Shown here: piece by piece, positions 18,084-50,152 of the stretch | Position numbering within the stretch: position 1 is the stretch's first letter | Layout: every line of letters starts with the position of its first letter | Source: a bacterium | GTDB taxonomy: Bacteria > Eisenbacteria > RBG-16-71-46 > CAIMUX01 | Length of the DNA: 64,000 nucleotides | Assembly (NCBI GenBank): GCA_030431975.1 | Contig: JAUIHP010000021.1 | Coordinates: forward strand, 1-64,000 | Reading direction: 5' to 3' | Notes under the pieces: model-generated | Seen by the model: the letters and a program-made list of their open reading frames with translations, nothing else | Database searches by the model: none | Told to the model about the DNA's origin: nothing | Made by a program: the position numbers and the translations under genes

Positions 18084-19553
18084 ATGGGCAAAAACAAACG
18101 AGACAAGAATCCTCGGACGGTGGAAGCCGGGAACAAGTCCCGGCCGGAAACCGGGGGCGCCCAAGCGGAGACGCAGGCGGCAAGCTCCGGGGGCCCTGAG
18201 GGTTCGGGTTGGAAGAGTTACCTGACCGCTCCGGTCGACATCGCCTCCACCGTCGTTTTCCGCTTGGCCTTCGGCGGCATTCTCCTCGTCGAGATGTTCC
18301 GCTTCTTTGGCTTCGGCTACATCAAGTCGCTCTACATCGATCCGGCTTTCTACTTCCCTTTCTACGGATTCGACTGGGTCCGGCCCTGGCCGGCTCCGGT
18401 CATGTACGCCCACTTCGTCGTTCTGGCCGTGGCAGCGATCTGCATCGCGAGCGGGCTCTTCTACCGGGTCGCGACCTGGGTCTTCTTCGTCGGATTCACG
18501 CACGTCTTCCTCATCGATCAGACCCGTTACCTCAACCACTTCTACCTGATCTGCCTTCTGGCATTTCTCCTGGCCTGGATCCCTGCGCATCGGGCTTTTT
18601 CTTTGGACGCACTGCGCAATCCAAAGCTCCGCTCGGATGTCATCCCGCTTTGGTCCCTGCTCCTGCTCCGCTTTCAGATGGCCATCGTCTATGTCGGGGG
18701 CGGGGTGGCCAAGATCAATCACGACTGGCTCCGCGGAGAGCCGATGCGGCTATGGCTCTCCCGCGAAGTCGACACTCCGGTCATCGGACCGCTGCTGGGG
18801 CACGCGCTCTCGCCCTACTTCTTCGCGTATGGCGGGCTCGTCTACGACCTCGTCGTTCCCTTCCTTCTGCTTTGGAAGAAAACCCGCGTTCCGGCGTTTC
18901 TGGTCACGCTCTTCTTTCATCTGACCAACTCGCAGCTCTTCGATATCGGAATCTTCCCCTGGTTCATGATTCCGGCGTCGACCATCTTCTTTCCCCCCGA
19001 TTGGCCGCGCCGATGGCTTGGGAAGTACGGTCGCACGAGTGCTGCACTCCCCGGACTTCCCTCATGGAAAGCGGCGATCTTCGGTCTCTACGTGGCGGCC
19101 CAGATTCTCGTTCCGTTTCGACACTTCCTCTATCCGGGCCGGGCGGCATGGACGGAGGAAGGCGCCAAGTTTGCCTGGCGAATGAAGCTCAACGAGAAGG
19201 GCGCGGATATCGGGTTCCATATTCTGGATGCGAACGGGCAACCCCTGCAGGGAGAACTCCCACGCTTCTCCCTGACCCCGACACAGATGCGGTTGATGGC
19301 GGCGACTCCGGAGATGATCGTCCTCGGCGCCAATCACATCGCCGACGTCCTCCACGAACACGGCTTCGAGGATGTCCAGGTTCGCGTTCGTTCGCAGGTC
19401 ACCCTCAACGGGCGGGCGCCTCAGGACCTCGTCGATCCCGAGGTGGATCTGGGTTCCGTCCGACGGTCCTTACGGCCCGCGCCCTGGATCGTGCCGCTGA
19501 CGACAGAGCTAGGAACCGGAAGCCCGTCGGAGACGATGTCGGGGCCGCGCTGA
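18084..19553 (+). CDS. HTTM / vitamin K-dependent gamma-carboxylase-like membrane protein
   Basis: The protein has 489 residues: a hydrophilic N-terminal tail (~45 residues), at least seven membrane segments between residues ~55 and 350, then a ~110-residue periplasmic or luminal part. The HTTM/VKGC family features are seen in DQTRYLNHFYLICLLAFLLAW, LRFQMAIVYVGGGVAKINHDWL and HLTNSQLFDIGIFPWFMI. The eukaryotic enzyme uses reduced vitamin K to carboxylate glutamates; bacterial members are common but mostly uncharacterised. A Lys in the GVAKINHDW segment is retained. The substrate is unknown. Neighbouring secreted, acid-rich proteins are conceivable targets, but that is speculation. Confidence 0.85.
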   Translation: MGKNKRDKNPRTVEAGNKSRPETGGAQAETQAASSGGPEGSGWKSYLTAPVDIASTVVFRLAFGGILLVEMFRFFGFGYIKSLYIDPAFYFPFYGFDWVRPWPAPVMYAHFVVLAVAAICIASGLFYRVATWVFFVGFTHVFLIDQTRYLNHFYLICLLAFLLAWIPAHRAFSLDALRNPKLRSDVIPLWSLLLLRFQMAIVYVGGGVAKINHDWLRGEPMRLWLSREVDTPVIGPLLGHALSPYFFAYGGLVYDLVVPFLLLWKKTRVPAFLVTLFFHLTNSQLFDIGIFPWFMIPASTIFFPPDWPRRWLGKYGRTSAALPGLPSWKAAIFGLYVAAQILVPFRHFLYPGRAAWTEEGAKFAWRMKLNEKGADIGFHILDANGQPLQGELPRFSLTPTQMRLMAATPEMIVLGANHIADVLHEHGFEDVQVRVRSQVTLNGRAPQDLVDPEVDLGSVRRSLRPAPWIVPLTTELGTGSPSETMSGPR

Positions 19554-19645: not shown

Positions 19646-22600
19646 TTACCGCATTCGAACGACCCGACCATCCAGAAGAATCTGACTCCCTCGCCGAACC
19701 TGGTAAAAGTAGATGCCGGGCGACACGCGGTGACCCGCTGCGGTTCGTCCGTCCCAAACGGCATCGTAGGCGCCGGCCTCTCGACTGGATCGGGCCGTCA
19801 GCCGCTGAAGATTACGACCGGAGGCATCGAAAATCCGAACCTCAGGCGCATCGAAGCCGACGCCGCCGTCGGTCGGCACCTGGATGGCGAAACGCACCTG
19901 GTCAACGAACGGATTGGGAAGCGTGTGGATCGAGACCGCTGCATCGGAGCCTTCCACGAAACCCGGCGCCCGGCCCGTTGCGTGTTCGCGAGTGGCATCC
20001 CACGGGAGGCGCGGAACTACATCAGCATCGCGAACCCCCATCGCGAAACGCCCGCCGTCCGACTGCCATTCGATAGAGAACGAGAAGCGGTCTTCTCCTG
20101 TTTCCGTTTCACGGATCATTCGCGCGGTGAACGCCGGATGACCGGGAGGAGTTCCGCCGAACTCGTGGTAGAAGTCGAAGGCGTAGCACTCTTCGATCAG
20201 GACGTCCGCAACGGTGTTCGTTGCCGTCGCAATCTCCCATCGTCCGACGTCTTCCTTCGGAGGCAGAACGACACTGCCACCTTCCGGGATCACATAGTTC
20301 GACCCACCGACCTGAATGACGATCCGGCCGTCGCTGACGTTGGTCACCCGGGTCCCGAGGTCGGTCTCCATGGGTGCGATCCCGAGGACGGCCTCCGTTC
20401 CCGGAATCAGACGGTGCGAGGAAGTTCGCTGCAGCTTGGCGGCGCCGCGGGTCTCGGGCGCCTGACCGTCCGGCACCGGAAAGATGTCGACATCTACGTC
20501 GCCGGACAAGGTCGTGAAGGCCCCTGAGAATCCGTAGGTTTGCCCATTGGACACGAGGCCCGGCTCATGAAGATGGTAGGAGCGTCCATTCCGGTAGGGA
20601 TTGATCGTGTGTTGCGCCAGCTGGGCGCAGCTCCCGAGGGCCAGATTCATCAGGTCGATGCCCGTGCGCCCATAGCCGCCGCCATGCGGAGTGCCCAACG
20701 TCGCGACGTAGGCATTCTCCCCCTGGTGCGAGGCGCTGAATGCCGTCGCCATTCCCGCACCCTCGGTCCAACCACGCTTCAAACCGTTCGCACTCGAGAT
20801 GCTGTTCCGCATCGCCGCCAGGAACCAGTTGTCCAGGTACCAGAGGGACGGCTGTTCGTCCGGGAGTTGACGTTGGATCTGCACCTGAACGAGATTGGCG
20901 TACTCCGAGAAAAGCGGATTCTCCTGCGCCGCCTTGGAAAGCAGGTAGAGATCGTAGGCAGAGGTGTAGTGATCCTCGGCGTCATCGGGATCTTCCCAGG
21001 CATTGAAGACACAGGGCCGATCGAAGTAGGTGTTGAGCATTCCGAGTTGTGCTGCTCGCTCGTTCATTTCTGCCTTGAGAAGCGTCTGCGCGCCGGACTC
21101 CTCGCCGGGGTAGAGAAAGTCGGCCAGTGTGAGAACGGCATCCCCGCCAAGCTCCATCAACGCAACACGAATCAGATCGACGTAGCGGATCGTTTCCCCT
21201 TCCTCGAGGTAGTTGTGCCCGGGAGACAACTCGGCCGCCCATTCCGGCACGATGACCGGGTGGTTTGCGGAGACATACTTCGGATCGGACGGAGACAGCT
21301 GCGTCCGCTCGCAGGCAATGAGTGCGGCCATGATGATCGAGGCGTTGGCCATCGGAAGTTCGTCGAAGAGTTTCTGCGAGAAGATGAAGTCACCGTCGCA
21401 GTCCACGGCGAGAGCGGAGTGGCAGTGGTAGTCCTGCGGCTGCCGCCACGGCGCCACGATGTGCACCATCCCTTCCCGTGCCGCCGAGACGGCGAGGTTC
21501 CCGCGACCCGACCCGTCAAAGTCTCCGATGACACCGGCCGAACCCAGTTCGTCCCGCTCTTCCGTTCGGTCTCCCAGAAGCTCCTGCCCGAAGTGGGTGT
21601 AGTAGCCGTGTGACCCGGGACCGGAGGGCCCGCCAAAGAGCAGCAGCCAACTCCCCGAGTCTTCGTGGTTCGTGTCGAAGCCGAAATCCAAAGGCGTTCC
21701 CACGAAGAGATCGTCGCTCAGGGTGTCGCCGCCGAACTTGCCGGACGCAAGGACGAGTCCGAACTGGTCCGACCAGTAGTTCGAACCCTGATACATGCTC
21801 TGGTCATGAACGGAGGTTCGGGAGAGGTCGGGACCCGGCTCTGCACCGCGAATGGTGTGGAAGCGTCCGGCCCACTCAAAGCCGTTCACTTCCGCTCTGG
21901 GCTCGCCGATGACGAGCGTCTCGAAGACGCCGGGACCGAAGAAACTACCCACGGCCAGGGACATTCCGAACGCGGCTTCCGGTGTCGCTTCGTCCGTCAT
22001 ACCAGCGTCGAGGTAGATGGCGGAGCTGGTCGACGGACCCTCCGCGGTGCCCCGAAGAACGAAGCACGCGCCTGCGTAGGAATCGATACCGACCGTACGC
22101 CGCGGGGCGCCGACCACCAGTTCACGCGCGGTGTTGCCGGCAAGGTTTCCGCTGGCCAGGGCCCAACCGAAACGGTCCGCCTGCGAGGAGAATCCCAGGC
22201 TACCTGGGCCGATGATGCGCGTTTCGCCGAAAGGCCCGAAATCCGTGCCGTCGACGATGAAGATCTGCCCGCCTCTTTCCGCGGTGTTCCCCGGGGAAGA
22301 CACGACCAGGTCCTGGTGAATGTCATTGTTGAGGTAGTCGATGAGGAGCGCGGCGCCGAAGAGTTCATCAGAGAGGCTGACCCCGCCGAAATCTTCCTGG
22401 ACGAAGCTCGGACCGGGAACGAGTCCGTCTTCGGATCCAAGGAAGAAGTAGATCCGTCCCGCGTCGGCGCGTCCGTTCACATCCTCCCACGGAGCAGCCA
22501 CGATAAGGTCGTCGAATCCGTTCCGGTTCAGATCGGCCGCCGCCAGGGCATAGCCAAACTGGGCTTCTTCTGTCGTACTGACACCGAATTCGGTGGCGAC

Positions 22601-22915
22601 ATGGACGGTGGAACCGACGTGAGTCAGTCCATGCTCGGAACCCCAGCTCACGACCACCGCTCCGGCTCGTTCGACCCCGCTGTCCGATGCAAACGGAGCG
22701 CCCGAGGCCAAGTCCTCGACTCCGTCTCCGTTGAAGTCGCCCGCGGCCAGGGCCCCGCCGTAGCGTTGGAAGAAAGTGCGGTCACCGGCCGCTTCGATCC
22801 CCTTTCGGATGATCGAGAGATGGGCGTCCGCCGTTTGGAAGGCGGCCGGAATCAGAGCGAGACCGAGAAACCCGGCGCAGATGGACCGGGTGCAATCGAG
22901 ATGGGAGCGTGACAT
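19646..22915 (-). CDS. Secreted FG-GAP/S11-peptidase-like pseudoenzyme with FlgD-like tail
   Basis: The protein has 1089 residues. GGAGG lies 4 bases before ATG 22915, and the signal peptide ends TADA. Residues ~45-490 hold seven or so FG-GAP beta-propeller repeats (AAGDFNGDGVEDLASGAPF, AAADLNRNGFDDLIVAAPW). Residues ~495-800 align with D-Ala-D-Ala carboxypeptidases of family S11, but the catalytic SxxK reads SIIM (526-529, Lys replaced by Met) and the SxN position reads GGD. It is therefore probably inactive. The close paralogue at 52219 keeps both. The C-terminus is FlgD-like (IFDASGRNLQRL, WDGRTAAGHRVSPGIYFYQV). It may bind peptidoglycan or act as a structural partner. Confidence 0.82.
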   Translation of the reverse strand: MSRSHLDCTRSICAGFLGLALIPAAFQTADAHLSIIRKGIEAAGDRTFFQRYGGALAAGDFNGDGVEDLASGAPFASDSGVERAGAVVVSWGSEHGLTHVGSTVHVATEFGVSTTEEAQFGYALAAADLNRNGFDDLIVAAPWEDVNGRADAGRIYFFLGSEDGLVPGPSFVQEDFGGVSLSDELFGAALLIDYLNNDIHQDLVVSSPGNTAERGGQIFIVDGTDFGPFGETRIIGPGSLGFSSQADRFGWALASGNLAGNTARELVVGAPRRTVGIDSYAGACFVLRGTAEGPSTSSAIYLDAGMTDEATPEAAFGMSLAVGSFFGPGVFETLVIGEPRAEVNGFEWAGRFHTIRGAEPGPDLSRTSVHDQSMYQGSNYWSDQFGLVLASGKFGGDTLSDDLFVGTPLDFGFDTNHEDSGSWLLLFGGPSGPGSHGYYTHFGQELLGDRTEERDELGSAGVIGDFDGSGRGNLAVSAAREGMVHIVAPWRQPQDYHCHSALAVDCDGDFIFSQKLFDELPMANASIIMAALIACERTQLSPSDPKYVSANHPVIVPEWAAELSPGHNYLEEGETIRYVDLIRVALMELGGDAVLTLADFLYPGEESGAQTLLKAEMNERAAQLGMLNTYFDRPCVFNAWEDPDDAEDHYTSAYDLYLLSKAAQENPLFSEYANLVQVQIQRQLPDEQPSLWYLDNWFLAAMRNSISSANGLKRGWTEGAGMATAFSASHQGENAYVATLGTPHGGGYGRTGIDLMNLALGSCAQLAQHTINPYRNGRSYHLHEPGLVSNGQTYGFSGAFTTLSGDVDVDIFPVPDGQAPETRGAAKLQRTSSHRLIPGTEAVLGIAPMETDLGTRVTNVSDGRIVIQVGGSNYVIPEGGSVVLPPKEDVGRWEIATATNTVADVLIEECYAFDFYHEFGGTPPGHPAFTARMIRETETGEDRFSFSIEWQSDGGRFAMGVRDADVVPRLPWDATREHATGRAPGFVEGSDAAVSIHTLPNPFVDQVRFAIQVPTDGGVGFDAPEVRIFDASGRNLQRLTARSSREAGAYDAVWDGRTAAGHRVSPGIYFYQVRRGSQILLDGRVVRMR

Positions 22916-27046: not shown

Positions 27047-28603
27047 TTATCGGACGATCACGAAACGAAGCGGTCCGGTGACCCGGCCGCTCCTTTCCGG
27101 TTTCGCCCAGTACGTCCCGGACGGAACCCGCTTTCCCTCGGAGTTCAATCCGTCCCAGGTCCACCCCGAACCGTCATCCTGCAGGCGCCGCACGATCCGA
27201 CCGGCGGCATCGAGGACGAGAAGTTGATCGGAGACCTTGACATCGCGACCTTCGGCGGATGCAACTCGGAACGATACGACCGAGCCGAACAGAGAGGGGT
27301 TCGGTGCGGCCAGAAGCTGCTGTCCTGGATGGTCCCATCCTGGGCCCGAGACATCGGACGCGACCAGAGTTTCTTCCCATGTTCGAAACGCATCGACACG
27401 TCCAGATCCCAGGCGATCCAGATAGGGTTGGTTCTCGGGAATGTCGTAGATCTCGACAACGCCGGCCGTGGCCACTTGCTGAACCTCTTCACGGTTCAGG
27501 TTGGGATCGACACTTCGGATCAAAGCAAGCTGTCCGGCAATGAAAGGCGCGGCGAACGATGTTCCCTCGCCGACGGCATACTGCCCGTCATGAAACGGAC
27601 CATACACCCCGACCCCCGGCGCTGAGATGGACACCGTCGGGTGGTAACTAGAGAACGTCGCCCGCACGTCGGCCGAGTCGAGTGCGGCAACGGAAAGGAC
27701 AAGTTCGTCGCTCGCCGGGTAGAAGGGCGGGTCTTCCGTTCCATCGTTCCCGGCCGCCGCCACCAGGTGCACCCCGGCATCCGCGGCGTACTCGAGTTCC
27801 CTGCGAAGCACCGAAGACTCGCAGGACAAACCCAAACTCAGATTGATGACGTCCGACCCGTGATCCACCGCGTACCGGATTCCCTTCGCGACATCAAAGG
27901 TCAGGCCGCGGCCCTCGTCGTCCAAGACGCGAATGGGAAGGATCTCGGCATCGGGGGCCATCAAATGAATCATTCCAGCGACCATCGTGCCGTGCCCCGC
28001 GGCGTCATCGGTGAGTCCGTCGCCATCCTCGTCCAACTCTGAGGCCTCGTCGTCCGGATCGGTATCATCGTCCACGAAGTCGTATCCCTCGTCGGAAACG
28101 GAACCGACCAGCGCTTCGTGGTCCGCTTTGACTCCGGTGTCGATGACCGCGACTCGAACACCGGCGCCCGTCGTGTGGACATGGGCCGGACCCAACTGGA
28201 TGCGTTCGGAGATGCTTTGATCGACATACTCTCCGAGACTCCCGCCGACGGCGCCGACCATCATCTGCTGCACGCCTTCGGGGGTTTCGCTGCGGAAGGC
28301 AAATTCAACTGTCCGGACCAGGGGATCGAGTTCGAGCAGCCCAATGACCTGCTCCGGGGTGAGCCAGAGGGGCAGTCCCATGAGGTAGGACGGATGGAGT
28401 TCGTCGACGACCCAGACTTCGTAGGTCGATTCCAGCGATTCGATCAGGGCTCCGGTTTCCAGCGTCAGCTGTATCAGATCGAGTTCGTACTCACACTCTT
28501 CGGCGTCGGCAGGAACGGCCATAGCCAAGCCCGCAATGAAGATGCAGAGTCCGGCCCATCCGGCCAGGAGCGGCCGTCGCATTGTGAAGCTCGTGGGATT
28601 CAT
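27047..28603 (-). CDS. Secreted subtilase (S8) of the CHAT operon, FlgD-like C-terminus
   Basis: The protein has 518 residues. The ribosome site (aggaag) overlaps the stop of the CHAT gene, only 10 bases upstream, so it is cotranscribed and probably coupled. A signal peptide ends PADA, followed by a ~110-residue propeptide-like region. The triad is intact: Asp155 (AVIDTGVK), His204 (HGTMVAGM), Ser349 (GTSFAAPF), with Asn in AAGNDG. An acidic loop DDDTDPDDEASELDEDGDG suggests calcium binding. A short FlgD-like module ends the protein (VLDAAGRIVRRL, WTWDGLNSEGKRVPSGTYWA). As the terminal gene after a caspase-like protease, it is the likely executing protease of the set (inference). Confidence 0.93.
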   Translation of the reverse strand: MNPTSFTMRRPLLAGWAGLCIFIAGLAMAVPADAEECEYELDLIQLTLETGALIESLESTYEVWVVDELHPSYLMGLPLWLTPEQVIGLLELDPLVRTVEFAFRSETPEGVQQMMVGAVGGSLGEYVDQSISERIQLGPAHVHTTGAGVRVAVIDTGVKADHEALVGSVSDEGYDFVDDDTDPDDEASELDEDGDGLTDDAAGHGTMVAGMIHLMAPDAEILPIRVLDDEGRGLTFDVAKGIRYAVDHGSDVINLSLGLSCESSVLRRELEYAADAGVHLVAAAGNDGTEDPPFYPASDELVLSVAALDSADVRATFSSYHPTVSISAPGVGVYGPFHDGQYAVGEGTSFAAPFIAGQLALIRSVDPNLNREEVQQVATAGVVEIYDIPENQPYLDRLGSGRVDAFRTWEETLVASDVSGPGWDHPGQQLLAAPNPSLFGSVVSFRVASAEGRDVKVSDQLLVLDAAGRIVRRLQDDGSGWTWDGLNSEGKRVPSGTYWAKPERSGRVTGPLRFVIVR

Positions 28604-28613
28604 AGCTGGCTTC

Positions 28614-31562
28614 CTATTGTATCACGGCACCGGTTTTCGAACGCGGAGAGACTCCTCCCATGACAGAGAAGGGAGCCCAGTGCCACGGGTGGGAGAATCG
28701 GTCCCGAACCCGAAGCGTTCCGGACCGGTGTCCTTCGACCGGGCCCTTCCCTCCGCAGATCGCAGCATAGAATCCCTCGGCGAAAACAGAGGACGCACCA
28801 TCCTCGACTTCCCAGAGTGAAGCCACGATGTTCCGGGCTCCGGCGTGCAGAAAGCCTTGTCCCAATCCGGTCCATTCATCGGCAACCACAACACGCCCTT
28901 TCCCGCTGGAACACGCCGTCAGGACGACGGTCGCGCCGGAAAAGTCGGCGTCTTCCAAGTCGTGGACAAAGAGCGGTCCGTCCGCCAGTTGCAGGGAACT
29001 GAAGGCGGGATTCCGAACCCGCAGCTGACCGTGGGTCGCCAGGTGAAGCAGTCCGCTTCGACCGCCCTCCTCCAGGATCTTGGACCGCGTCGGCGCGGGA
29101 TCGATCACCGGATCCCAGGATGCGCTTCCCGCCGCGAAGAGCGAAGCCACGGTTTCGAGTTCACGCTCCACGTGTGGAATATCCGGCTGTGAAAGTCCGG
29201 CGATCCACGCACGGCGCGAGGGCACGTCGCCTTTCCGGTGCGACTCGAGCCAAACCCGAGCACTCGGAACCGTCGACACCGTTCCGTGATCGACGAGAAA
29301 GCGATGTCCATCGAACAATGCGTGAAAGGGAATGCGATGTCCCGGCCCGTGAGGTGCGATCATCCAGGTTTCGACCTCAGGCGGAGCGCCCAGCGGTCTC
29401 CAGAGCCGGTCGTACAGATCCCGGAGACTGGCCAAAGTCGAACGGACCATCGGATGAGCACTGGAGAATGGATCGCCTTCGTAGCCCATTTGGCCTTCCG
29501 AGTCCGTCGGCGACTGCGATGCCGACGCCCCACCCGACTTGCGTGGGAGGTGGAGTCGACTCGCGTTCTCGAGCGCGGCAGCTCTCCACTGAAAATCCAG
29601 CTCGTCGGCCAAGCGACGAATCTCGGGAGCGGACGCCGACGGCAACTCGACTCGAAAAGTGTCGCCGTTGCCGGTTAGAACAAGGGCGAACGAGTGGTGA
29701 GCGCCAAGATGATAGGAAACGAGTCCCGCCTCCTTCGGCAAGGCCTCGGTCACGGCCTCCAACTCGAGAGATCCTTCGGGCCCGGAACCGGAAGCCAGCC
29801 AGGAACGCTCCCGGCTCGTCTGAAGTTCGCGTCGATAATCCGATTCCAACCCTTCGAGGTCTTCTCGAATGCGCACGGCCATCTTCCGCTCGGATTCCGT
29901 CCCGAGCTCCAACCGGGAAGCTCGCGCATGCGCCCAGCTCAGTTGGTCGCGCAACTCCCGAAGGTGCCCCTCCCTCTCGTACTTGGGTTCGGTCAAAGTG
30001 TGAAACGAATCCCAAGCCCGTTGTGCCCGGCCACGCTCCATCAGGGAAAAGAGCACCTCGAGCCGAGGACGCGAACGGGCAGCCTCGATTTCGACTCGAC
30101 GATCAAAGACGTGTCCTTTGTCCTGGAGGAATGCGAGCTTCGCTTCCTCGCCCGGGATGCGAAAGCGAATGGACTCGAGAAGCTCCACCGTCTTTTCCGA
30201 AGTCCGCGTCAGTGACCGTGTCTGTCCCAACGCGAGATAGACTTCGGCCAGGGTGTCGAGCAGGAGCAACGCCATTCCGGGATAGACGGTTGCATCCACA
30301 CGGGACAGCACTCCGCGCAAACGCCGGACCGTGCCCTGGCTCGCTCCGACACTCAGTGCGGCGCGTGCGAGTAGAGCCGTCGTCAGAGCCTCCCAACGAA
30401 GGAGGCCTCTCTTGCGGAACTCCCGAACGAGGACTTCCGCCGACTCTCTCGCAACGTCGGCCCGGCCTTCCGCCCAATCGACCTGGGCGGACACGAGTCG
30501 GCAGAGTAGCGATCGTGACTCGTTCTCTTCGGACAGGAACGCGCTTTGCGCCCGCTCGATTTCCTGCCGGGCGGGAGCGGAACGCCCTAGGGCCAGGTTG
30601 GCCAGGGCCAGGTGGTACCGGGCCAGTCCCTCGTAGTACACCATCCCTTCGTTTGCGTAGTCCTGGGCGGCGTCCCCGGCCAAGTGGGTGGTTTCCCGAT
30701 GGAGACCGAGCTCGTGATAGACCTCGGCACGACTGAGGATGTTCGCGGCCCGATAGGCGACATGCTCGGTCTCCTGGAAGTACTCCTGCGCGAGACCCAG
30801 GAGTCGAAGCGCTTCGCCGAAGTCGCCCGTTTGTTGGCGGACGAGGGCGGCGTTCATTCGGCATTGGGCCAACAAGAGCGTGAAACCGTTCTCGCGGCAC
30901 ATGGCTTCGGCGCGGGCGAACGCGTCGAGGGCTTCCTTCGGTTGTTCGGTTTGGGTCAGCGCCACGGCCAGGTTGATCTCGGCGCCGACCGAAGAGGGGT
31001 CCTTCCGGTTCTGTGCGCGAAAGATCTCCGTCGCCTTTCGGCACTCTTCCAAGGCGGCGTTGTGATCATCGCGCTGGAAATGCAACGTTCCCAGGTTCAT
31101 GGCCAGCTTGGCCTGGTACTCCTCGTTGCCCGAGATTTCCAGGGTCGTACGCGCCTGAGAGGCAGCCGCCAACGCCTCGTCGTAGCGCCCGAGCAACGTC
31201 AACACATGAACGAGAGCGGTTTGTAGCTCTCCGGAACGTGGCTCTTCCGGTGTGTCCTTCCATTCTCGAAGCGCCGAGCGAAAGTGTTCTTCCGCATCCT
31301 TGTAGGCTCCGGAAAAGAAAGCAGCTTCGGCAAGAGACCGGTAGCCCCATCCCAGCGCGACACGGTCCCCGGAACCTTTTCCGATGAGCAGAGCCTTCTC
31401 GGCCGCTTCGCGGGCCAGCCGTGCGTCCGTCCCGTGCTGAAGCGTGGCGCGGTTGCGCAACTCGCGGACTGCGTCGACGGGCGCAACGAGCCCCTGTTGG
31501 CAGAGAGATTCCAACTCGTCGACGGAAAGATGAGAAACGTCCGCGGTCACTTCCACTACCAC
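28614..31562 (-). CDS. TPR-CHAT caspase-like protease
   Basis: The protein has 982 residues with no signal peptide (cytoplasmic). The GTG start at 31562 lies 6 bases after the previous stop. Residues ~60-440 are tandem helical repeats of TPR type (ALVHVLTLLGRYDEALAAAS, NLGTLHFQRDDHNAALEECR, INLAVALTQTEQPKEALDAF). A helical linker follows to ~580. The CHAT caspase-like domain ends the protein with the dyad His844 (LHLATHGQ) and Cys884 (VLTACSSGKG), then LGQGFLHAGARNIVASLWEV. CHAT proteases cleave specific partner proteins when their sensor half is triggered, as in gRAMP/Craspase and bacterial gasdermin systems. Here the partners are not CRISPR or gasdermin genes but a sigma factor, a small beta protein and a subtilase. 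Confidence 0.92.
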   Translation of the reverse strand: MVVEVTADVSHLSVDELESLCQQGLVAPVDAVRELRNRATLQHGTDARLAREAAEKALLIGKGSGDRVALGWGYRSLAEAAFFSGAYKDAEEHFRSALREWKDTPEEPRSGELQTALVHVLTLLGRYDEALAAASQARTTLEISGNEEYQAKLAMNLGTLHFQRDDHNAALEECRKATEIFRAQNRKDPSSVGAEINLAVALTQTEQPKEALDAFARAEAMCRENGFTLLLAQCRMNAALVRQQTGDFGEALRLLGLAQEYFQETEHVAYRAANILSRAEVYHELGLHRETTHLAGDAAQDYANEGMVYYEGLARYHLALANLALGRSAPARQEIERAQSAFLSEENESRSLLCRLVSAQVDWAEGRADVARESAEVLVREFRKRGLLRWEALTTALLARAALSVGASQGTVRRLRGVLSRVDATVYPGMALLLLDTLAEVYLALGQTRSLTRTSEKTVELLESIRFRIPGEEAKLAFLQDKGHVFDRRVEIEAARSRPRLEVLFSLMERGRAQRAWDSFHTLTEPKYEREGHLRELRDQLSWAHARASRLELGTESERKMAVRIREDLEGLESDYRRELQTSRERSWLASGSGPEGSLELEAVTEALPKEAGLVSYHLGAHHSFALVLTGNGDTFRVELPSASAPEIRRLADELDFQWRAAALENASRLHLPRKSGGASASQSPTDSEGQMGYEGDPFSSAHPMVRSTLASLRDLYDRLWRPLGAPPEVETWMIAPHGPGHRIPFHALFDGHRFLVDHGTVSTVPSARVWLESHRKGDVPSRRAWIAGLSQPDIPHVERELETVASLFAAGSASWDPVIDPAPTRSKILEEGGRSGLLHLATHGQLRVRNPAFSSLQLADGPLFVHDLEDADFSGATVVLTACSSGKGRVVVADEWTGLGQGFLHAGARNIVASLWEVEDGASSVFAEGFYAAICGGKGPVEGHRSGTLRVRDRFSHPWHWAPFSVMGGVSPRSKTGAVIQ

Positions 31563-31568
31563 CGTTCT

Positions 31569-32198
31569 CTACATCTCGATGGGATCGATCCCCATGCGGG
31601 TGTCGCCCCAGAGAACCTCAACGCGGGCGAATCCAACGTTCAAGTCCGCAAAGGTGAATCGACCCGTGTCGGCGATCTCGACGGTTTCGACATGGCCGTG
31701 CTGAATGACCTTGGCCTGACGAGTGCTCTCGGCGCGATCGACGTGAGCGATGAACTGTCCATCGACGCGTCGCACCTCTCCTTCGCGGGACAACTGTAGA
31801 ATGAGCCGACCCGGCTCGAAGTCATAAAGAATGCTCTGCGGCCCGAGTTCGGCCGCCTGCGAGCGGGTCCCGGCCACGGCGCCACCCATGCTGTCGAGAA
31901 CGAGGGTTCCCTCCAATACGCGCGCGGCCCGCACGAAGGCATCGGCGGTCCACTCCCGCGCTTTCTCCACGAACGATCGCTTCGCTTGGGGAGACGGGTT
32001 CTCCATGGCCAGGGCCCGATCGAGTGCCTGGCGGGACCAGTCCGCTGGAGCCTGTTCCAAGGCGGGACCGAAAAGCCCTTCGAGGATGGAACGGTAGACC
32101 GCGACATCCTTTGTCGGGATCGGCTCGCCGGCCAGTTCGGCATCGGCGATCAGCCGTTTCAACTCAGCTTCCACTCGTTCTCGGTTCGGATCGGTCAT
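31569..32198 (-). CDS. Small soluble protein between ECF sigma and CHAT genes, possible sigma regulator
   Basis: The protein has about 209 residues, with start at ATG 32198 (or 32213, five residues more). It has no signal peptide, membrane segment or zinc-binding anti-sigma motif. The N-terminal half is helical (RVEAELKRLIADAELAG, WSRQALDRALAMENPS). The C-terminal half is predicted beta-rich, ending TGRFTFADLNVGFARVEVLW, which looks like a small Ig/carboxypeptidase-regulatory-type sandwich. It lies 6 bases from the CHAT start and downstream of the sigma gene across a hairpin. A role as anti-sigma factor or CHAT substrate is suggested by position only; I do not recognise a named family. Confidence 0.6.
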   Translation of the reverse strand: MTDPNRERVEAELKRLIADAELAGEPIPTKDVAVYRSILEGLFGPALEQAPADWSRQALDRALAMENPSPQAKRSFVEKAREWTADAFVRAARVLEGTLVLDSMGGAVAGTRSQAAELGPQSILYDFEPGRLILQLSREGEVRRVDGQFIAHVDRAESTRQAKVIQHGHVETVEIADTGRFTFADLNVGFARVEVLWGDTRMGIDPIEM

Positions 32199-32236
32199 CG
32201 ACCTGGGCTCCATCGTCCGTTGCGTTTGAAATGCTC

Positions 32237-32298
32237 GGAAGACGACTCCGAGCGATCGACGCCGGCCGCAATGGCGCCGACTCCCAAAGTCGTCTTCC
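32237..32298 (-). promoter_or_regulatory. 11-bp perfect inverted repeat between sigma gene and the downstream CHAT operon
   Basis: ggaagacgact (32237-32247) and its exact complement (32288-32298) flank 40 bases that are themselves GC-rich and foldable. It occupies the ~156-base gap between the sigma stop and the next gene. It could attenuate read-through or be a paired binding site; no T-run follows on the minus strand. Confidence 0.5.
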
Positions 32299-32354
32299 TA
32301 GCGAGTCGTTCGTCCGCGACCGCGTTTCGTACACCCCTATCGAAGTTTTTTGGT

Positions 32355-32948
32355 TCAGGCCCAGCCATTTTGACGGAAGACCTTCTTCATCCTCTCGAGG
32401 CAGCGTCCGCGGATCGGCCCGACACTTCCCGAGGAGATCCCTTCCTCCGCCGCCAGAGCCTCATAGTCCTTGGGCGGCACTTCCAGAAAGAGAGCCGAGA
32501 GAATCCGTTGGCAGCGCTCGCCCAGCGTCCCGAGCGCCAGTCGAACCTGGTACGTCCGCTCCAGAACGAGCCGTTCCGACTCGGGAAGTTCTTCCGCCGA
32601 CGGAAGGTCGAGCAACTGTTCGTCCTCTGGATCGGTGGCCCGCTCCCGCCCGATGGCCTGAGCCCGTTTCGCCCCCTGCCGGACAGCGATGCCGATAATC
32701 CACGAACTGAGCCGGTCGGGTTGGCGCAGGTTCTGCAGACTCGTAACGATGGCCGCAACCGTGATCTGGAAGGCTTCCCGCGTGTCGTCCTCCGGAAGTG
32801 AATAGCGACGCAGGCAGGAGTAGATCAGGTCCTGGTAGCGGCGCAGGAACTCCTCCCAGGCGGATTCCCGACGGATCAGACACTCGGCGATGAGGGTTTC
32901 GACTTCCCACTCGGACGGCGGGATCTGGTGCGGATCGACTTCATTCAT
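32355..32948 (-). CDS. ECF-type RNA polymerase sigma factor (CHAT-operon)
   Basis: The protein has 197 residues, with ggaag close to ATG 32948. The region 2 signature is AWEEFLRRYQDLIYSCLRRY, with EDDTREAFQITVAAIVTSLQNL and LSSWIIGIAVRQGAKR. The region 4 signature is LGERCQRILSALFLEVPPKDYEALAAEEGISSGSVGPIRGRCLERMKK. The SSGSVGPIRGRCLE helix is of the type found in sigma factors with GPxRxRCL in region 4.2, which I recall as often located beside CHAT-domain genes in other phyla. Its start is 88 bases downstream of the three-repeat lipoprotein gene. It probably drives the downstream protease operon. Confidence 0.93.
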   Translation of the reverse strand: MNEVDPHQIPPSEWEVETLIAECLIRRESAWEEFLRRYQDLIYSCLRRYSLPEDDTREAFQITVAAIVTSLQNLRQPDRLSSWIIGIAVRQGAKRAQAIGRERATDPEDEQLLDLPSAEELPESERLVLERTYQVRLALGTLGERCQRILSALFLEVPPKDYEALAAEEGISSGSVGPIRGRCLERMKKVFRQNGWA

Positions 32949-33035
32949 GCGCTTCCGATGGTATCACTGAAACCGCAGGAGCGCGTGGAAACGAGCGAGT
33001 CCGAATCGGAGTCCGAACTCGCTGGACGGATGCGG

Positions 33036-34184
33036 CTAGCCGATTTCGTCGCCGAGGATGCGGCGAAGATGTTCCCATTGCTCCGAAGTCAGGATGCTCT
33101 CCAGAGCGGTGACATAGCGGTTCGTGATCTGCTGCATGCGAGCCCGAGCCTCCTCGCCGGTCATCTCTCCGGAGGCCAGGGCCACCCGAACTTCGCGAAT
33201 GGCCTGAAGCCGGAACCGCTCGATCTCGATGACGGCGTGAAACTGGTCCTCGGAAAGTCCCAGCGCCTGAGCAATGCGCTCCCAACGGCGAAGGTCGACA
33301 TCATGGTCGGGGTCGACGTCGTCGTCACCTCCATCATCGTTCCCGTCGTCGGGATCCGTCGGGTCGTCGTCCGTCGGATCACCGTTGTCATCCGGGTCAC
33401 GCGGATCGTCGCTACCGTTTCGGATATCGAGCAGACGCCGCCACTGTTCCGCCGTCAGAATTTCCTGAAGGCGCGACTCAAAGCGGGCGCGGAGGTCCCG
33501 AATCAGGCGTCGCGCCTCTTCTGCACCGAGTTCGCCGGTTTCGAGGCGGCGATGCACTTCGCGGACACGATCAGCGGTGGCGGTTTCGGCCGTCAGAATC
33601 GCATCGAGTTGCGCATCCGTGAGTCTTAGGACGCGAGCGAGGCGATCCCAATACGCTCTGCTGGGGTCGGTATCGCCGTCCGAGTCAGAATCGTCTCCGT
33701 GATCCCCGTCCGGTGAATCAGTGTGGCCGTTGCGAAGTTCCTGCAAAAGGCGGTACTGCTCCTCGGTCAGAATCTCCCGAAGCCGGGTCTCGAAGTTTTC
33801 GCGGAGGGATCGCGCCCGGATCGAAGCCTGTTCGCGGCTGATTTCGCCGGCTTCATAGGAGCTGCGGAGCGCCTTCATCGCCTCATCCAATTCCTGATGA
33901 GCGTCACGCAGCGCGACCAGTTGCCTTTCGGACAGGCCCAACGCCTCGACGAGGCGGGACCACCGGTCCCCGGTTCCTTCGCGATCGGTTGCTGCGTCTT
34001 CGAAGGTAATCTGGGACTCGGCGTCGAAGAGACTGGTCATCTCCTCTTCCGTCAGAGTGGAGGCGCCCCTCGGTTCCGTGGGTCCGTCATCGGAACATCC
34101 GACCGCACCGAACATCATCGTCGCCGCGAGGGCGGTCGTCGCCAGGCCGTTCAGGATCCAGCTTGTCTTCAGGGGACGCAGCAT
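33036..34184 (-). CDS. Lipoprotein with three LTxxQ (CpxP/Spy-like) repeats
   Basis: The protein has 382 residues. ggagg lies 8 bases before ATG 34184, and the leader ends in a lipobox (GAVGC-SDDG). There are three copies of an ~80-residue helical unit, each ending with an LTxEQ motif: ILTEEQYRLLQELRNG, ILTAEQWRRLLDIRNG, ILTSEQWEHLRRIL. They are joined by Asp/Gly-rich linkers that would bind cations. Periplasmic LTxxQ proteins (CpxP, Spy, CnrX-type) sense misfolded protein or metals and often control stress sigma or two-component systems. The gene lies immediately upstream of the ECF sigma gene on the same strand, so it may be the envelope sensor of that set. A three-fold repeat is unusual. 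Confidence 0.8.
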   Translation of the reverse strand: MLRPLKTSWILNGLATTALAATMMFGAVGCSDDGPTEPRGASTLTEEEMTSLFDAESQITFEDAATDREGTGDRWSRLVEALGLSERQLVALRDAHQELDEAMKALRSSYEAGEISREQASIRARSLRENFETRLREILTEEQYRLLQELRNGHTDSPDGDHGDDSDSDGDTDPSRAYWDRLARVLRLTDAQLDAILTAETATADRVREVHRRLETGELGAEEARRLIRDLRARFESRLQEILTAEQWRRLLDIRNGSDDPRDPDDNGDPTDDDPTDPDDGNDDGGDDDVDPDHDVDLRRWERIAQALGLSEDQFHAVIEIERFRLQAIREVRVALASGEMTGEEARARMQQITNRYVTALESILTSEQWEHLRRILGDEIG

Positions 34185-34516
34185 CTTCGTTTCCTCCGAC
34201 GAATCCGAGTGAGTTGAGCCTGCGAGCAGCCCGCGGGGCCCATCCAGGATCGAATGCCATTGGGCTCGACCTGGCCGTTTGGGAGACCACTCCCAGTATG
34301 TTATCGACCCGATCCCGTACGAGTCCATGCTCGAATGAGGCGGTTCCCGAGTCCCGCGCCTCGTGCGGGGAGCCTGGCGTGGCCGTAAGTTGCGCGGGCG
34401 CGGACAGTGGAGACCAGACCAACCGGAGTGATATCATCGAATGGCTGTGGGGTGGACGATCATCCTGCGGCCATCGCCGCTTCCCCTCGCTGCTTCTGCT
34501 CAAGGAGGTTCCCGGA
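34185..34516. other. Divergent promoter region
   Basis: These ~330 bases between the divergent lipoprotein and M28 peptidase genes contain no credible gene. Promoters for both directions should lie here, but I could not pick convincing boxes. Confidence 0.4.
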
Positions 34517-39124: not shown

Positions 39125-39697
39125 GTGCACGGTGTAGGTGACGACGGCATCTCGACCCCGGACAACCGGGGTCGAGCCGACTTCCCCGCCGACTGGATCG
39201 AACCGATCTATGCCGATCTGCGACGTCTGGCCCAGCGGTACATGTCCAACGAACGCGGTGATCACACGCTTCAGGCCACGGCGCTCGTCCACGAGGCCTT
39301 TCTTCGGCTCTCCAACCTCTCGGTCGACGCGTCCGACCCCGCAGCCCTTCGCGGGTTGGCCGCCCGCACGATGAGGAATGTGCTCGTCGACCACGCGCGA
39401 CGCCGCGGCGCGGCCAAACGTCGCGGCGAAATCGAGACGAACGAGCTGGATGAAGAGCGAACCTCCGACCCGGTCGAAGACCCCGTCTGGGACGAGCTCA
39501 TCGCGCTGGATCAATCCCTGGAACGACTGGCGAAGTTGGATGAACGAAGGGCGCGCATCGTCGAGCTCCGATTCTTTGCCGGTTGGACAGTGAGCGAAGT
39601 CGCCGAACTGTTAGGCGTTTCTGTGCGCACGGTGAACTACGACTCCGCATCGGGATGCGAGTGGCTGCGGACGGATATGGGCCACGACGAAGCATGA
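39125..39697 (+). CDS. ECF sigma factor (Sigma70_ECF, kinase-linked type)
   Basis: The protein has about 190 residues. The only reasonable start in frame after the preceding stop is GTG 39125, though without a clear ribosome site. It has the ECF signature of the type paired with Ser/Thr kinases: YADLRRLAQRYMSNERGDHTLQATALVHEAFLRL, then LRGLAARTMRNVLVDHARRRGAAKRRG, and in region 4 LERLAKLDERRARIVELRFFAGWTVSEVAELLGVSVRTV. Its stop overlaps the kinase start (ATGA). In characterised neighbours the kinase phosphorylates and controls the sigma factor; the same is likely here. Confidence 0.9.
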   Translation: MHGVGDDGISTPDNRGRADFPADWIEPIYADLRRLAQRYMSNERGDHTLQATALVHEAFLRLSNLSVDASDPAALRGLAARTMRNVLVDHARRRGAAKRRGEIETNELDEERTSDPVEDPVWDELIALDQSLERLAKLDERRARIVELRFFAGWTVSEVAELLGVSVRTVNYDSASGCEWLRTDMGHDEA

Positions 39698-42303
39698 GCG
39701 TCGGCAAGGAGGAGAACCAAGTCCGCAGTACTTCCAGGCCCGAGTTTCAACCCACTGAGTCCGACTCGGAACGTTGGATCGCGCGAATCGTTGGAGCAGC
39801 CGCAACCCGGTACGTCGAGGACACCGACCCGGTCGTCGGTACAGACATCGGGCCATTCACGGTGCGGGAACGACTCGGCGAAGGCGGGATGTCGGTCGTC
39901 TATCTCGCGACGCAGAAGGACGACGTCTTCGATCGCCTCGTCTGCCTGAAGCTGATCAAACGGGGCATGGATACCGACGCGGTCCTGAGGCGATTCCAAC
40001 ACGAAAGGCGCATTCTTGCGGCCCTCGATCATCCGAACATCGCACGACTCTACGACGGAGGCACGACACCGGACGGCCGTCCCTACTTCGTCATGGAATA
40101 CGTCGACGGACAACACCTGCTCGGTTACTGCGACGCCCACGGTCTGTCCCTGAATCAACGCATCGATCTCTTCCGCGTCGTCTGCGATGCCGTTCAGTTC
40201 GCGCATCAGAACCTCGTCGTACACCGTGACCTGAAACCCGCCAACATCATTGTTACTTCGTCGGGCGTTCCGAAGCTTCTCGACTTCGGAATCGCGGCCG
40301 TCCTGCAGCCCGACTCCGGCACGACGTCCGAGACCACCGAGCCGCTCGGCTCCCGCGCGTTTCTGACTCCGGCCTACGCCAGCCCCGAGCAGGTACGCGG
40401 GCAACGTGTGACGACGGCCACCGACGTCTATTCGCTGTCCACCATCCTCTACCGGCTCCTTTCGGGAGCGCACCCGTTTCCGGCGGAATCCCGCGCCGAA
40501 CTGGAAGAAAAGATTCAGAAGGACTTGCCGGCTCCGCCAAGTCGGCATCGGGCGGCAACGGCGCCGCGACTACACGGAGACCTGGACCGCATCGTCCTGA
40601 AAGGGATGGCGAAAGATCCCGCCGAAAGATACGCCACTCCCCTGGAGCTTTCCGCGGATCTTGCGCGCTACCGACAGGGAATGCCGATCCAGGCGCGACC
40701 AAACTCCAGGACGGAGCGTTTCTTCAAACTGATCCGAAGAAACAAGCTCGCGACCGCAGCCGTTCTTCTACTGACGACCCTTGCGGTCTCGGCAACGGTT
40801 CAGTCCTTTCGGCTGGAGAGTGCGCGCCAATCGGCTCACACCGAACGCGACCGAGCACAGGAGACGGCAGCACTTCTCGCCGACGTTCTCGATGTGGCCG
40901 ACCCCAACGTCTCGTTTCGCGAGTCCCCACATTCCCCGCTCCTTGACTGGGGTGGGGGAAGCTTCACGCTCGAGGCTTGGATCCAGTGCTCGAGCGGCGG
41001 CCAAGGGTTGACCACGATTCTCGACAAGAGAGTTCCACCCTACCTCGCGTCCCGCGGCTTCTCCCTGTTCCTTTACGAAGGCCGTCTTGGGCTCCAGATT
41101 GCCGACGGCGAGAAGAAGTCATTGCCCGGCCAACAACAGGCGAGCACGAGCAACAACTACCTGGGAACGACGGATGTCTCGGACGGTCGGTGGCATCACG
41201 TGGTGGCCAGCGCCCGAAGAAACGAAGGCTCGGAGAAAGACGGCTGGATCGGACTCTTCGTCGACGGCCGACTCGATCGGGAGTTCGGCGGGGAGGTCGT
41301 CCGCTCCGGCTCGACCGACAATACAGCGCCGGTCCGGGTTGGACTGGAAAGTGACGGGTTCCACATTTCCAACCCGTTCCGAGGGGCGATTCGAGAGGTT
41401 GCCATCTATGATCAAGCCCTGACCCCTGCAGAGGTCGCGACTCGCCACCGCCTGGGACAGCGTGAACTCCACTCCCAGGGTGCGTACGTTTCCCCCGTTT
41501 CTGGATTGCCCGGCGAAACGATCCAAACGGCCCTGGTCGTCACCAATCCCGGCGGCGCCGAACGAACACTTCAGTGGACGGTCGCCGGACTCATCGGCCC
41601 CGGACAGAGCCGTCCGACCATCCCGACTCGTTTTTCTCCGGTCTCCGGAACACTGCACATCTTCCCGGGACAGAACGAGGGAGTTCAGGGTTTCGCCATC
41701 GAGCTTCCCGATGATCTCCCGGCTGGTCCGACACGGTTCGTCGTTTCGCTACAGGACGGCGCTTCCAGTGAACCGTGGCGCGTCTACGGAGTCGTCCACG
41801 TCCATGCCCGGGAGACCGATCGGGGTCAGGGTCAGAGTCAAACTCAGGATCCGACGAGCCCGAAGTCTTCGGACCGTCTCTCATTCCAAGGCGCATCGTC
41901 GAATCCATTGCGGGATTCCCCACCGAGCGGGCTTCGCGTTCCTGCCCCGCTCGATCTTTCCTTCGGGACCCGGCTGCGCACGAATGAGCGGTTCTCACGG
42001 GGCGCGATTCACTTCGGTGTTTCCAGCCGGCAGCCGATCGAGGTCGAGCTCGAGATCCGCGATATCTCGGGACAGGTCGTTCGCAACGTCCCGCTGGGCC
42101 CCTTGAGTGCCGGACAGCATTCGGTTCAGTGGGACGGAACCGGTCCGACCGGCGAGCGGCTCAAGAATGGGATCTACACGATTCGTATTCTGGGACGCGA
42201 CCACCTGGTGGCTCAGTGGGACGAAAGCGCCGGGGGCCTACGCCGGGCGCCCGCCGAACTGCTTCAGCAGAGAGTCGTCCACCTCCGTCATTCGGGCCCG
42301 TAG
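39694..42303 (+). CDS. Membrane Ser/Thr kinase with extracytoplasmic LamG and FlgD-like domains
   Basis: The protein has 869 residues. The start overlaps the sigma stop (ATGA). Residues ~50-330 form a complete Hanks kinase: GEGGMSVVYLA, LKLIKRG (catalytic Lys), VVHRDLKPANI, LLDFGIA, YASPEQV. One TM helix follows (~350-372, LATAAVLLLTTLAVSA). Up to ALLADVLDVADPN (~405) the sequence matches the usual TPR-bearing kinases of this class, but instead of TPRs it switches to a LamG lectin-like domain (GGGSFTLEAWIQC, GRWHHVVASARR, IREVAIYDQALTPAEV), then an Ig-like region and a FlgD-like end (EIRDISGQVVRNV, WDGTGPTGERLKNGIYTI). The extracytoplasmic half resembles the protein encoded just downstream. 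Confidence 0.9.
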   Translation: MSVGKEENQVRSTSRPEFQPTESDSERWIARIVGAAATRYVEDTDPVVGTDIGPFTVRERLGEGGMSVVYLATQKDDVFDRLVCLKLIKRGMDTDAVLRRFQHERRILAALDHPNIARLYDGGTTPDGRPYFVMEYVDGQHLLGYCDAHGLSLNQRIDLFRVVCDAVQFAHQNLVVHRDLKPANIIVTSSGVPKLLDFGIAAVLQPDSGTTSETTEPLGSRAFLTPAYASPEQVRGQRVTTATDVYSLSTILYRLLSGAHPFPAESRAELEEKIQKDLPAPPSRHRAATAPRLHGDLDRIVLKGMAKDPAERYATPLELSADLARYRQGMPIQARPNSRTERFFKLIRRNKLATAAVLLLTTLAVSATVQSFRLESARQSAHTERDRAQETAALLADVLDVADPNVSFRESPHSPLLDWGGGSFTLEAWIQCSSGGQGLTTILDKRVPPYLASRGFSLFLYEGRLGLQIADGEKKSLPGQQQASTSNNYLGTTDVSDGRWHHVVASARRNEGSEKDGWIGLFVDGRLDREFGGEVVRSGSTDNTAPVRVGLESDGFHISNPFRGAIREVAIYDQALTPAEVATRHRLGQRELHSQGAYVSPVSGLPGETIQTALVVTNPGGAERTLQWTVAGLIGPGQSRPTIPTRFSPVSGTLHIFPGQNEGVQGFAIELPDDLPAGPTRFVVSLQDGASSEPWRVYGVVHVHARETDRGQGQSQTQDPTSPKSSDRLSFQGASSNPLRDSPPSGLRVPAPLDLSFGTRLRTNERFSRGAIHFGVSSRQPIEVELEIRDISGQVVRNVPLGPLSAGQHSVQWDGTGPTGERLKNGIYTIRILGRDHLVAQWDESAGGLRRAPAELLQQRVVHLRHSGP

Positions 42304-49400: not shown

Positions 49401-50152
49401 GTTTCGAAGTTCTGGGGAGGATCGAATATCTGGATCGCGTGGAGTCCGGAATCAAGAGTCTGTCATCCATTCTCGAGCGGCTGGCCCGCGGCGCCGTCTA
49501 TCCGGGAACAACGGAAACGCGTTCGGCCCTGCCGCCGGAGCTGGTCACTTCCGTGGCCCAAAAGATCCACCTTCTTCGTGCAGCCCTGGACGGCCTGGTG
49601 CGCGACGAGGCCGCAGATGCCTTCCTGAGTGTGGAAGCCGGTCACGATGTCGGCGCTCACTCTTCCACATCCGGACCCGACGAAGGCGAAGTCGCATTCT
49701 CGAAAGAGGTCGCGCGAATGTACCGGCGTTGGGCGGAACACCGGGGAATGCGAATCGACGAGTTGAAATCGAAGGGCAACGCCGCGGACCGGGTCGTCTT
49801 TGCCATTAGTGGCTACGGAGCCTTCTCGCTTCTCCGAAACGAAGACGGTCTCCACGTTCTGGATCACGAGACGTCCTCGGGCCGGCCGAATGCCCGGCAG
49901 ACGGTCCGCGTTCGCGTGGCGCCACGCCCGGCTGCGTCCGCTTCGAACTCCCCCGCCGAGTACTACGAGCGCGCCGTCTCGGAGTTGGCCGGGTCGGATA
50001 CGCCCAAGGTCGTCCGGCGCTATTGGAAGGAACCCTCGCCTTTGGTGCGGGACCTGATTCGCGGTTGGAGAACCGGTCGCATCGATCAGGTACTGGACGG
50101 CCATTTCGATCTTTTCGATTCGGTTGACGAACCGACTACGGCCCACTCCTGA
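46460..50152 (+). CDS. Membrane-anchored ClpB-like double-AAA+ ATPase fused to a release-factor-like region
   Basis: The protein has 1230 residues. An N-terminal TM helix (TPILIMALVTGLFVWL) is followed by a helical-repeat region to ~260. D1 AAA has Walker A GPAGVGKS (290-297), but the Walker B stretch reads WVIPNLGDF, without the acidic pair. D2 AAA is intact: GPTGTGKT (594-601), VVLLDEFEKA (~659), a sensor LTSNLG, and a ClpB D2-small domain. After a Ser/Gly/Ala linker, residues ~925-1220 align with class-I release factors: a domain-1 helix pair (KGFWESPDRFEVLGRIEYLD), LSVEAG, ARMYRRWAEHRGMRIDEL, VFAISGYGAFSLLRNEDGLHVL, and the terminal RTGRIDQVLDGHFDLF. The SPF codon-reading motif and the whole GGQ domain are missing. 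It could be a ribosome-directed unfoldase at the membrane; the function is unknown. Confidence 0.9.
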   Translation: MDTLFTPILIMALVTGLFVWLSRRRERSVAELPNPTPQGHTEPVSFDGMDSGVVAEALGAVFQRVSRPQDFLEQAEFQAAVRWLDQNVDEDRELLTYYTGDHMPLACAALETLALRKGDNPEIAEPLLENVGAVHPWSRVFVLRVLEARVPGPLIGRVLLAVGPEWAEFPVALEELRALIRRRMAEGETPSLGEGLKSAPVDQIETLQAVLLKRLDASVAGPLQKEIDEFQDQLIDTSALEEVGSVDGKIDDNHPASNPDIVPHTAMTDLVDELVRRISSNPRRPQVVMGPAGVGKSATISVLVDRIRRDGWIVFRASSSQLLAGTGFVGQLEERVGRLMRNLAAPRKVAWVIPNLGDFLMAGSHLHSRVTILDMIRPNLEAGQLAIIAEADPSGFEAVVRDNPSLGPLFDVQRLEPVPPEVAAELARKWAESRVHIEDPTIDETQRMAAQYLTHLAAPGALFLLLRQTEKRLARDRASTLGQATTSGPASDSGRVSDSGADSVQASSSERVSSPEHMEIRDDDILNTVANLSGLPMQILDNRSSLDLEETERFFSRKVLGQPEAVSCLCDRIAMVKAGVTDPTRPLGVFLFAGPTGTGKTELAKALASYLFRSPDRMVRLDMSEFQTGESLDRLVGQKDGPVATRSLVDQIREQPFSVVLLDEFEKAAPQVWDLFLQLFDDGRLTDSRGRTADFRHAIVILTSNLGAAIPAGQSVGFHGEGSQSFRAGDVERALSETFRAEFLNRIDQVVIFRPLSRAIMRKLLEKELAEAFERRGLRHRQWALEWDDSAIEFLLEKGFTVTLGARPLKRAIERHLLTPLSRTIVEHLYPKGDQFLFVRGKDDRLEVEFIDPDADATDAAYAYSSDTSGDSSSGTHRDASGVAPDGAAVVREPGSRAGTASPGDGPSAPASGLGHESELGDLLSIRALVLRPHLSPKDLPQLERESQQIEERYEAGGYHEIKNDALEQLSRKGFWESPDRFEVLGRIEYLDRVESGIKSLSSILERLARGAVYPGTTETRSALPPELVTSVAQKIHLLRAALDGLVRDEAADAFLSVEAGHDVGAHSSTSGPDEGEVAFSKEVARMYRRWAEHRGMRIDELKSKGNAADRVVFAISGYGAFSLLRNEDGLHVLDHETSSGRPNARQTVRVRVAPRPAASASNSPAEYYERAVSELAGSDTPKVVRRYWKEPSPLVRDLIRGWRTGRIDQVLDGHFDLFDSVDEPTTAHS

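Follow-up and report, generated by a model that had tools for sequence, protein, structure and literature searches.

The 64,000-nucleotide stretch of DNA analyzed here (the window) comes from a member of the Eisenbacteria and carries four consecutive genes on its minus strand. In the direction of transcription, these encode an ECF sigma factor of 197 amino acids (positions 32355 to 32948), a small protein of 214 amino acids that is proposed below to be an anti-sigma factor and protease substrate (31569 to 32213), a caspase-like TPR-CHAT protein of 982 amino acids that is proposed to be both sensor and protease (28614 to 31562), and an exported S8 subtilase of 518 amino acids, the proposed output gene (27047 to 28603). 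The intergenic gaps, in this order, are 141, 6, and 10 bp. The original prediction for this DNA had described four collinear genes with short gaps flanking the CHAT gene, and both the open reading frames and the two gaps were recovered as it had placed them; the 141-bp gap between the sigma factor and small-protein genes was absent from it. The gene identities it had proposed also held in profile searches, in which the sigma factor matched TIGR02937 (sigma70-ECF; E = 2e-15), the third protein matched CHAT (PF12770; E = 1e-44, 153.5 bits against a curated cutoff of 24) together with TPRs, including TPR_12, and the fourth matched Peptidase_S8 (PF00082; E = 2e-43). Both sets of catalytic residues that it had reported as intact are present, namely, the CHAT dyad of His844 and Cys884 and the subtilase triad of Asp155, His204, and Ser349.

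The subtilase has a hydrophobic N-terminal signal and a weak FlgD-like C-terminal domain, and export was found for 17 of the 18 relatives in which it could be tested. In a PADLOC search, the CHAT and small proteins matched no defense family, and the matches of the subtilase were weak only. Upstream of the sigma factor gene and on the same strand, a gene encoding a lipoprotein-like product with three Spy/LTXXQ-like repeats (33036 to 34328, minus strand) ends at a distance of 87 bp; it is not found beside related copies of the operon.

Sigma factor and its putative expression signals

The region 4.2 signature of the window sigma factor is GSVGPIRGRCL, the last eight residues of which are encoded at positions 32397 to 32420, and the form GP[TI]RxRCL is common to 10 sigma factor homologs that were aligned with it. 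Directly before the ATG lies an extended -10-like element, TGATACCAT (32946 to 32966, minus strand). This placement of a housekeeping-like extended -10 was seen in the window sigma factor gene and its close relatives, and of 94 sigma factor genes, 10 had the pattern TGnTAnnnT ahead of an in-frame start, against 0.5 expected. The same arrangement occurs in 6 of 155 genes of the genome from which the window derives, two of the six being sigma factors of this type. Judged from these sequence patterns, transcription from a housekeeping promoter probably begins at the start codon and yields a leaderless message, which fits constant expression of the sigma factor combined with posttranslational control.

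The 141-bp gap that follows the sigma factor gene (32214 to 32354, minus strand) can form a long hairpin, with 15-nucleotide arms at 32288 to 32302 and 32233 to 32247 that are 93% complementary (-56 kcal/mol; z = -2.35). It is possible that this hairpin controls the ratio of sigma factor to anti-sigma factor. An ECF-type promoter of the form GGAAC-N-CGTC, suggested by a site before a second subtilase gene, was considered and rejected; the window contains 13 matches where 11.7 would be expected, which is chance level. A second ECF sigma factor (PF07638; E = 8e-41) is encoded 6 kb from the first and directly precedes a Ser/Thr kinase that has both LamG and FlgD-like domains (39125 to 42303, plus strand), a pair that represents a different type of ECF regulation.

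Conservation of the operon

Genome contigs were scanned with nothing but the sigma factor region 4.2 pattern GS[IV]GP[TI]R[AG]RC, which recovered at least 577 relatives, and the best 80 loci were kept. The sigma factor, small-protein, CHAT, and S8 genes were found in order on one strand in 43 of these 80 loci (the best 80 of at least 577), a count in which mild ascertainment bias is possible, as the seed alignment consisted of sigma factor homologs that mostly adjoin CHAT genes in related genomes. Among the 64 of the best 80 loci with at least 3.8 kb of downstream sequence, the most constant neighbor was the CHAT gene (53 of 64), followed by the small-protein gene (50 of 64) and the subtilase gene (45 of 64). 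Some loci (L037, L050, and L051) had the sigma factor and the small protein without a nearby CHAT gene. The original prediction had called for a neighborhood search of this kind, and it was not refuted on this count, as the operon was found to recur in at least seven phyla, including Eisenbacteria, Chloroflexota, Acidobacteriota, Planctomycetota, Armatimonadota, Actinomycetota, and Pseudomonadota. Cultured bacteria, for example Chthonomonas calidirosea and Geodermatophilus, are related to two of the loci with these genes (L067 and L121). The same prediction had pointed to similar neighborhoods in other phyla for which no mechanism had been worked out, which proved right; the context of the ECF54 group, discussed below, takes up one sentence in PMC8999054, and a literature search that was largely without subscription journals found no paper working out the mechanism of this operon.

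The window's own genome (6.19 Mb) contains 10 CHAT genes and 10 homologs of the window sigma factor, 7 of which bear the GP[TI]RxRCL signature. In six of these seven cases, a CHAT gene follows downstream at a distance of no more than about 4 kb and on the same strand, compared with a chance of about 0.3% per sigma factor as estimated from gene density. Six sigma-CHAT modules are thus present in the genome, and those on C3, C17, and C28 include a small protein and a subtilase as well. Evolutionary distances of the sigma factors, small proteins, and CHAT proteins are correlated (r of about 0.79), a value that shared ancestry alone could give; the congruence of trees within this genome is based on only five paralogs. 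Elsewhere in the genome, two CHAT genes (L028 and L029) adjoin genes for zf-HC2-like proteins with TPR-like tails, and a third (L035) has as neighbors the genes for a small protein that is TPR-like and for a sigma factor in the opposite orientation; these loci suggest further CHAT-sigma variants. The two annotated neighborhoods of plasmid-borne CHAT relatives (Caballeronia and Azospirillum) were without the operon, so a CHAT protein need not come with this set of genes; a third plasmid record bore no gene annotation.

TPR-CHAT protease

Within the third protein of the operon, the TPR region spans residues 77 to 340, approximately, and the CHAT domain spans residues 711 to 969. The codons for the catalytic histidine (29031 to 29033) and cysteine (28911 to 28913) specify residues that are conserved in 70 of 70 CHAT proteins, which implies selection for catalysis. 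The CHAT profile matched the solved structures of Csx29 with E values of about 1e-16 and that of separase (5fc2) with an E value of about 1e-5. No SAVED domain match was found in the CHAT protein.

The relationship to separase raised the option of cleavage after an arginine at P1. An apparent match was noted initially between an invariant arginine of the small protein (Arg117) and a conserved aspartate of the CHAT domain (Asp921). The S1 aspartate of separase (Asp2151/2070) aligns instead to CHAT column 925 (separase Cys + 41; Csx29 K670, PMC9729208), which holds alanine in 27 of 50 sequences and serine in the window protein, and the common residues of which are not acidic. The P1-Arg-binding aspartate is therefore not conserved here, and the separase analogy was rejected, leaving a cut at Arg117 without homology support.

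Small-protein family

An AlphaFold model of the window small protein (pLDDT 82.8) contains an N-terminal helical domain that is zinc-less (approximately residues 1 to 104) and a C-terminal beta-sandwich (approximately residues 126 to 208). The protein itself matched no Pfam family. Its relatives were more informative: the zinc motif HxxxCxxC lies near the N terminus in 22 of 61 of them, and the zinc-type members have ligands at H6, H31, C35, and C38, the same spacing as in ChrR. When a profile of the zinc-type N-terminal domains was compared with solved structures, the top matches were anti-sigma factors, namely, RsiW (E = 1.3e-7), ChrR (3e-5), RslA (2.5e-4), and DdvA (4e-4). A profile mixing zinc-type and zinc-less N-terminal domains gave the same four structures (RsiW, 1.6e-6; RslA, 6.5e-5; ChrR, 1e-4; DdvA, 1.1e-4), and the whole-family profile, matches of the beta domain aside, matched RsiW (6e-6) and RskA (0.005). 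The presence of an anti-sigma domain in the small-protein family is thus well supported by profile comparison.

The window protein is a divergent, zinc-less member of this family, having no cysteine at all and thus no zinc ligands. Alone, it scored 6.8 bits against the zinc-type profile (E = 0.34), which is not significant; together with two close relatives, it reached an HHalign probability of 80% over 53 columns. A Foldseek search with its modeled helical domain returned no anti-sigma factor among the matches. The window copy probably has the anti-sigma domain. The claim in the original prediction that the small protein holds the sigma factor accordingly gains strong support from this domain at the level of the family but less so for the window copy, which alone does not match the zinc-type profile significantly.

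The C-terminal half matched PF13620 (CarboxypepD_reg) in 7 of 66 members, and Foldseek matches of the beta domain were to generic Ig/FN3-like folds only. Between the two domains, in a loop modeled with low confidence, lies Arg117 (codon at 31863 to 31865, minus strand), which is present in every one of the 66 members. It is a candidate recognition or cleavage site, and it could also be structural. No Csx30 chain was among the solved-structure matches of the family, a comparison that covered structure profiles only. Among the structures that did match is chain B of PDB 8rot and 8rw5, a 991-amino-acid CHAT domain-containing protein in which residues 5 to 47 match the anti-sigma profile and the CHAT domain occupies residues 833 to 973; it is apparently a natural fusion of anti-sigma and CHAT parts.

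Proposed mechanism and alternatives

We propose that the operon encodes a CRISPR-free switch in which the small protein holds the sigma factor and an activated TPR-CHAT protease cuts the small protein, freeing the sigma factor; we put the probability of this reading at roughly 0.55. The N-terminal anti-sigma domain of the small protein would bind the ECF sigma factor and keep it inactive, and the TPR part of the protease would sense an intracellular cue. On activation, the CHAT domain would cleave the small protein, with the loop that joins the anti-sigma and beta domains as the most likely site. What is left of the anti-sigma part would then be lost, and the sigma factor would be free to drive expression of its regulon. 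An output role is probable for the exported subtilase, and the CHAT gene may be induced as well, which would give positive feedback. The cutting step is suggested by the logic of the operon, by the invariant catalytic residues, and by the precedent of Csx29 and Csx30. The original prediction had drawn a circuit from trigger through CHAT activation, cleavage of the small protein, and release of the sigma factor to expression of proteases, and overall this circuit is partly supported. In the window's own genome, which is 97% complete, there was no match to PF03787 and no Cas7-11 or other RAMP protein, so CRISPR RNA is not likely to be the trigger.

The four genes might instead comprise an ordinary sigma/anti-sigma pair that is released by another signal or by a housekeeping protease, with the CHAT and S8 proteins as effector proteases made under control of the sigma factor. 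Such an arrangement, which we regard as unlikely, would be in keeping with the anti-sigma domain of the small-protein family, with the export of the subtilase, and with the loci that have the sigma factor and small protein but no nearby CHAT gene. It sits poorly with the position of CHAT as the most constant neighbor of the sigma factor (53 of 64 loci, from the best 80 of at least 577) and with a small protein that is soluble and has an additional conserved beta domain and an invariant loop arginine; moreover, Csx29 and Csx30 show that a direct cutting route exists.

The explanation published for the ECF54 group is that the proteases may degrade the sigma factor itself and so keep it off, with no anti-sigma factor involved. 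It was proposed from a genomic context of CHAT, subtilase, and carboxypeptidase genes (PMC8999054, a review), and the window operon likewise has CHAT, subtilase, and carboxypeptidase-like genes adjoining an ECF sigma factor gene. By this description of the neighborhood, rather than by the ECF54 group model, the ECF54 context is very probably the operon type described here, and the carboxypeptidase is probably the small protein, 7 of 66 members of which match PF13620. The family of this middle gene has an anti-sigma domain, and the exported subtilase has no access to the sigma factor. Degradation of the sigma factor is consequently improbable as the mode of control, and the description of ECF54 as lacking an anti-sigma factor looks wrong.

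Partner switching, in which the CHAT protein would bind the beta domain of the small protein and free the sigma factor without cutting, is equally improbable. TPR proteins commonly work by binding, and the binding of Csx30 to Csx29 is independent of protease activation (PMC10028731), but a mechanism of binding alone leaves the invariance of the catalytic histidine and cysteine in 70 of 70 CHAT proteins unaccounted for. Accidental adjacency of unrelated genes, for which nothing more than their adjacency at a single locus could speak, is excluded by the conservation of the ordered four-gene set at 43 of the best 80 of at least 577 sigma-seeded loci and in seven phyla.

Relationship to known systems

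The closest worked example for the protease-released switch proposed here is type III-E CASP, in which Csx30, a binding partner and inhibitor of an ECF sigma factor, is cut by the TPR-CHAT protease Csx29 (PMC10028731). CASP/Craspase (Cas7-11, Csx29, Csx30, and CASP-sigma) and the window operon both encode a TPR-CHAT protein, a two-domain holder of the sigma factor (putative in the window), and an ECF sigma factor together; the catalytic dyad is common to both, and the CHAT profile matches Csx29 chains. In contrast to CASP, no Cas7-11 or other RAMP protein was found in the window's own genome, the window protease scored 39.8 bits with the Csx29 model against a cutoff of 300, and the operon has a soluble protein of the anti-sigma-domain family in place of Csx30, plus an exported subtilase. 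Two type III CRISPR systems offer further comparisons. CalpL/CalpT/CalpS frees an ECF sigma factor when its protease is triggered and cleaves an anti-sigma factor (PMC11417357), which is the release logic proposed here with another protease; that protease is of the SAVED-Lon type and is switched on by cyclic oligoadenylate, whereas the window has a TPR-CHAT protein and no CRISPR component. In SAVED-CHAT, too, a protease of the CHAT family takes part in a proteolytic cascade (PMC11229360), but the proposed sensor part of the window protein is TPR rather than SAVED. Separase is related through its CHAT domain and differs at the P1-Arg-binding position, as described above. The zinc and nonzinc anti-sigma factors RsiW, ChrR, RslA, and RskA share the N-terminal anti-sigma domain with the small-protein family, and HxxxCxxC is found in part of that family; unlike them, the small protein is soluble, ends in a beta-sandwich, and is encoded next to CHAT, and the window copy is without zinc ligands.

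The anti-sigma domain of the middle gene, its likely identity with the ECF54 "carboxypeptidase," the phylum range of the operon, and the parallel with CASP are new here, and they turn a one-line remark on the neighborhood of a sigma factor group into a testable circuit of sigma factor, likely holder, protease, and output. A broader reading, which we offer tentatively, is that the TPR-CHAT/anti-sigma/ECF sigma switch is widespread and independent of CRISPR, occurring across seven or more phyla and frequently with several copies in one genome, and that the CRISPR CASP cassette (Csx29-Csx30-CASP-sigma) was recruited from such switches. If so, sigma factors released by a protease and run by relatives of caspases would be a general bacterial signaling route, of which the CRISPR version is one recruited branch. 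The small protein would then be the likely natural substrate of a large CHAT protease family, and these sigma factors could no longer be viewed as acting without an anti-sigma factor. The presence of several copies in one genome suggests that sensors operate in parallel and respond to different inputs.

Other features of the window

Three further features of the window were noted. A protein of 1,220 amino acids (46490 to 50152, plus strand) has the unusual combination of Clp-type AAA domains (AAA_2 and ClpB_D2), an AAA_16/STAND-like region, and a C-terminal PCRF (release-factor) domain (E = 1e-9). Two similar proteins, encoded at 19646 to 22915 (minus strand) and 52219 to 55440 (plus strand), have FG-GAP repeats, an S11 D-Ala-D-Ala carboxypeptidase domain, and an FlgD-like tail. 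An HTTM protein that resembles vitamin K-dependent gamma-carboxylase (E = 1e-90) is encoded at 18120 to 19553 on the plus strand.
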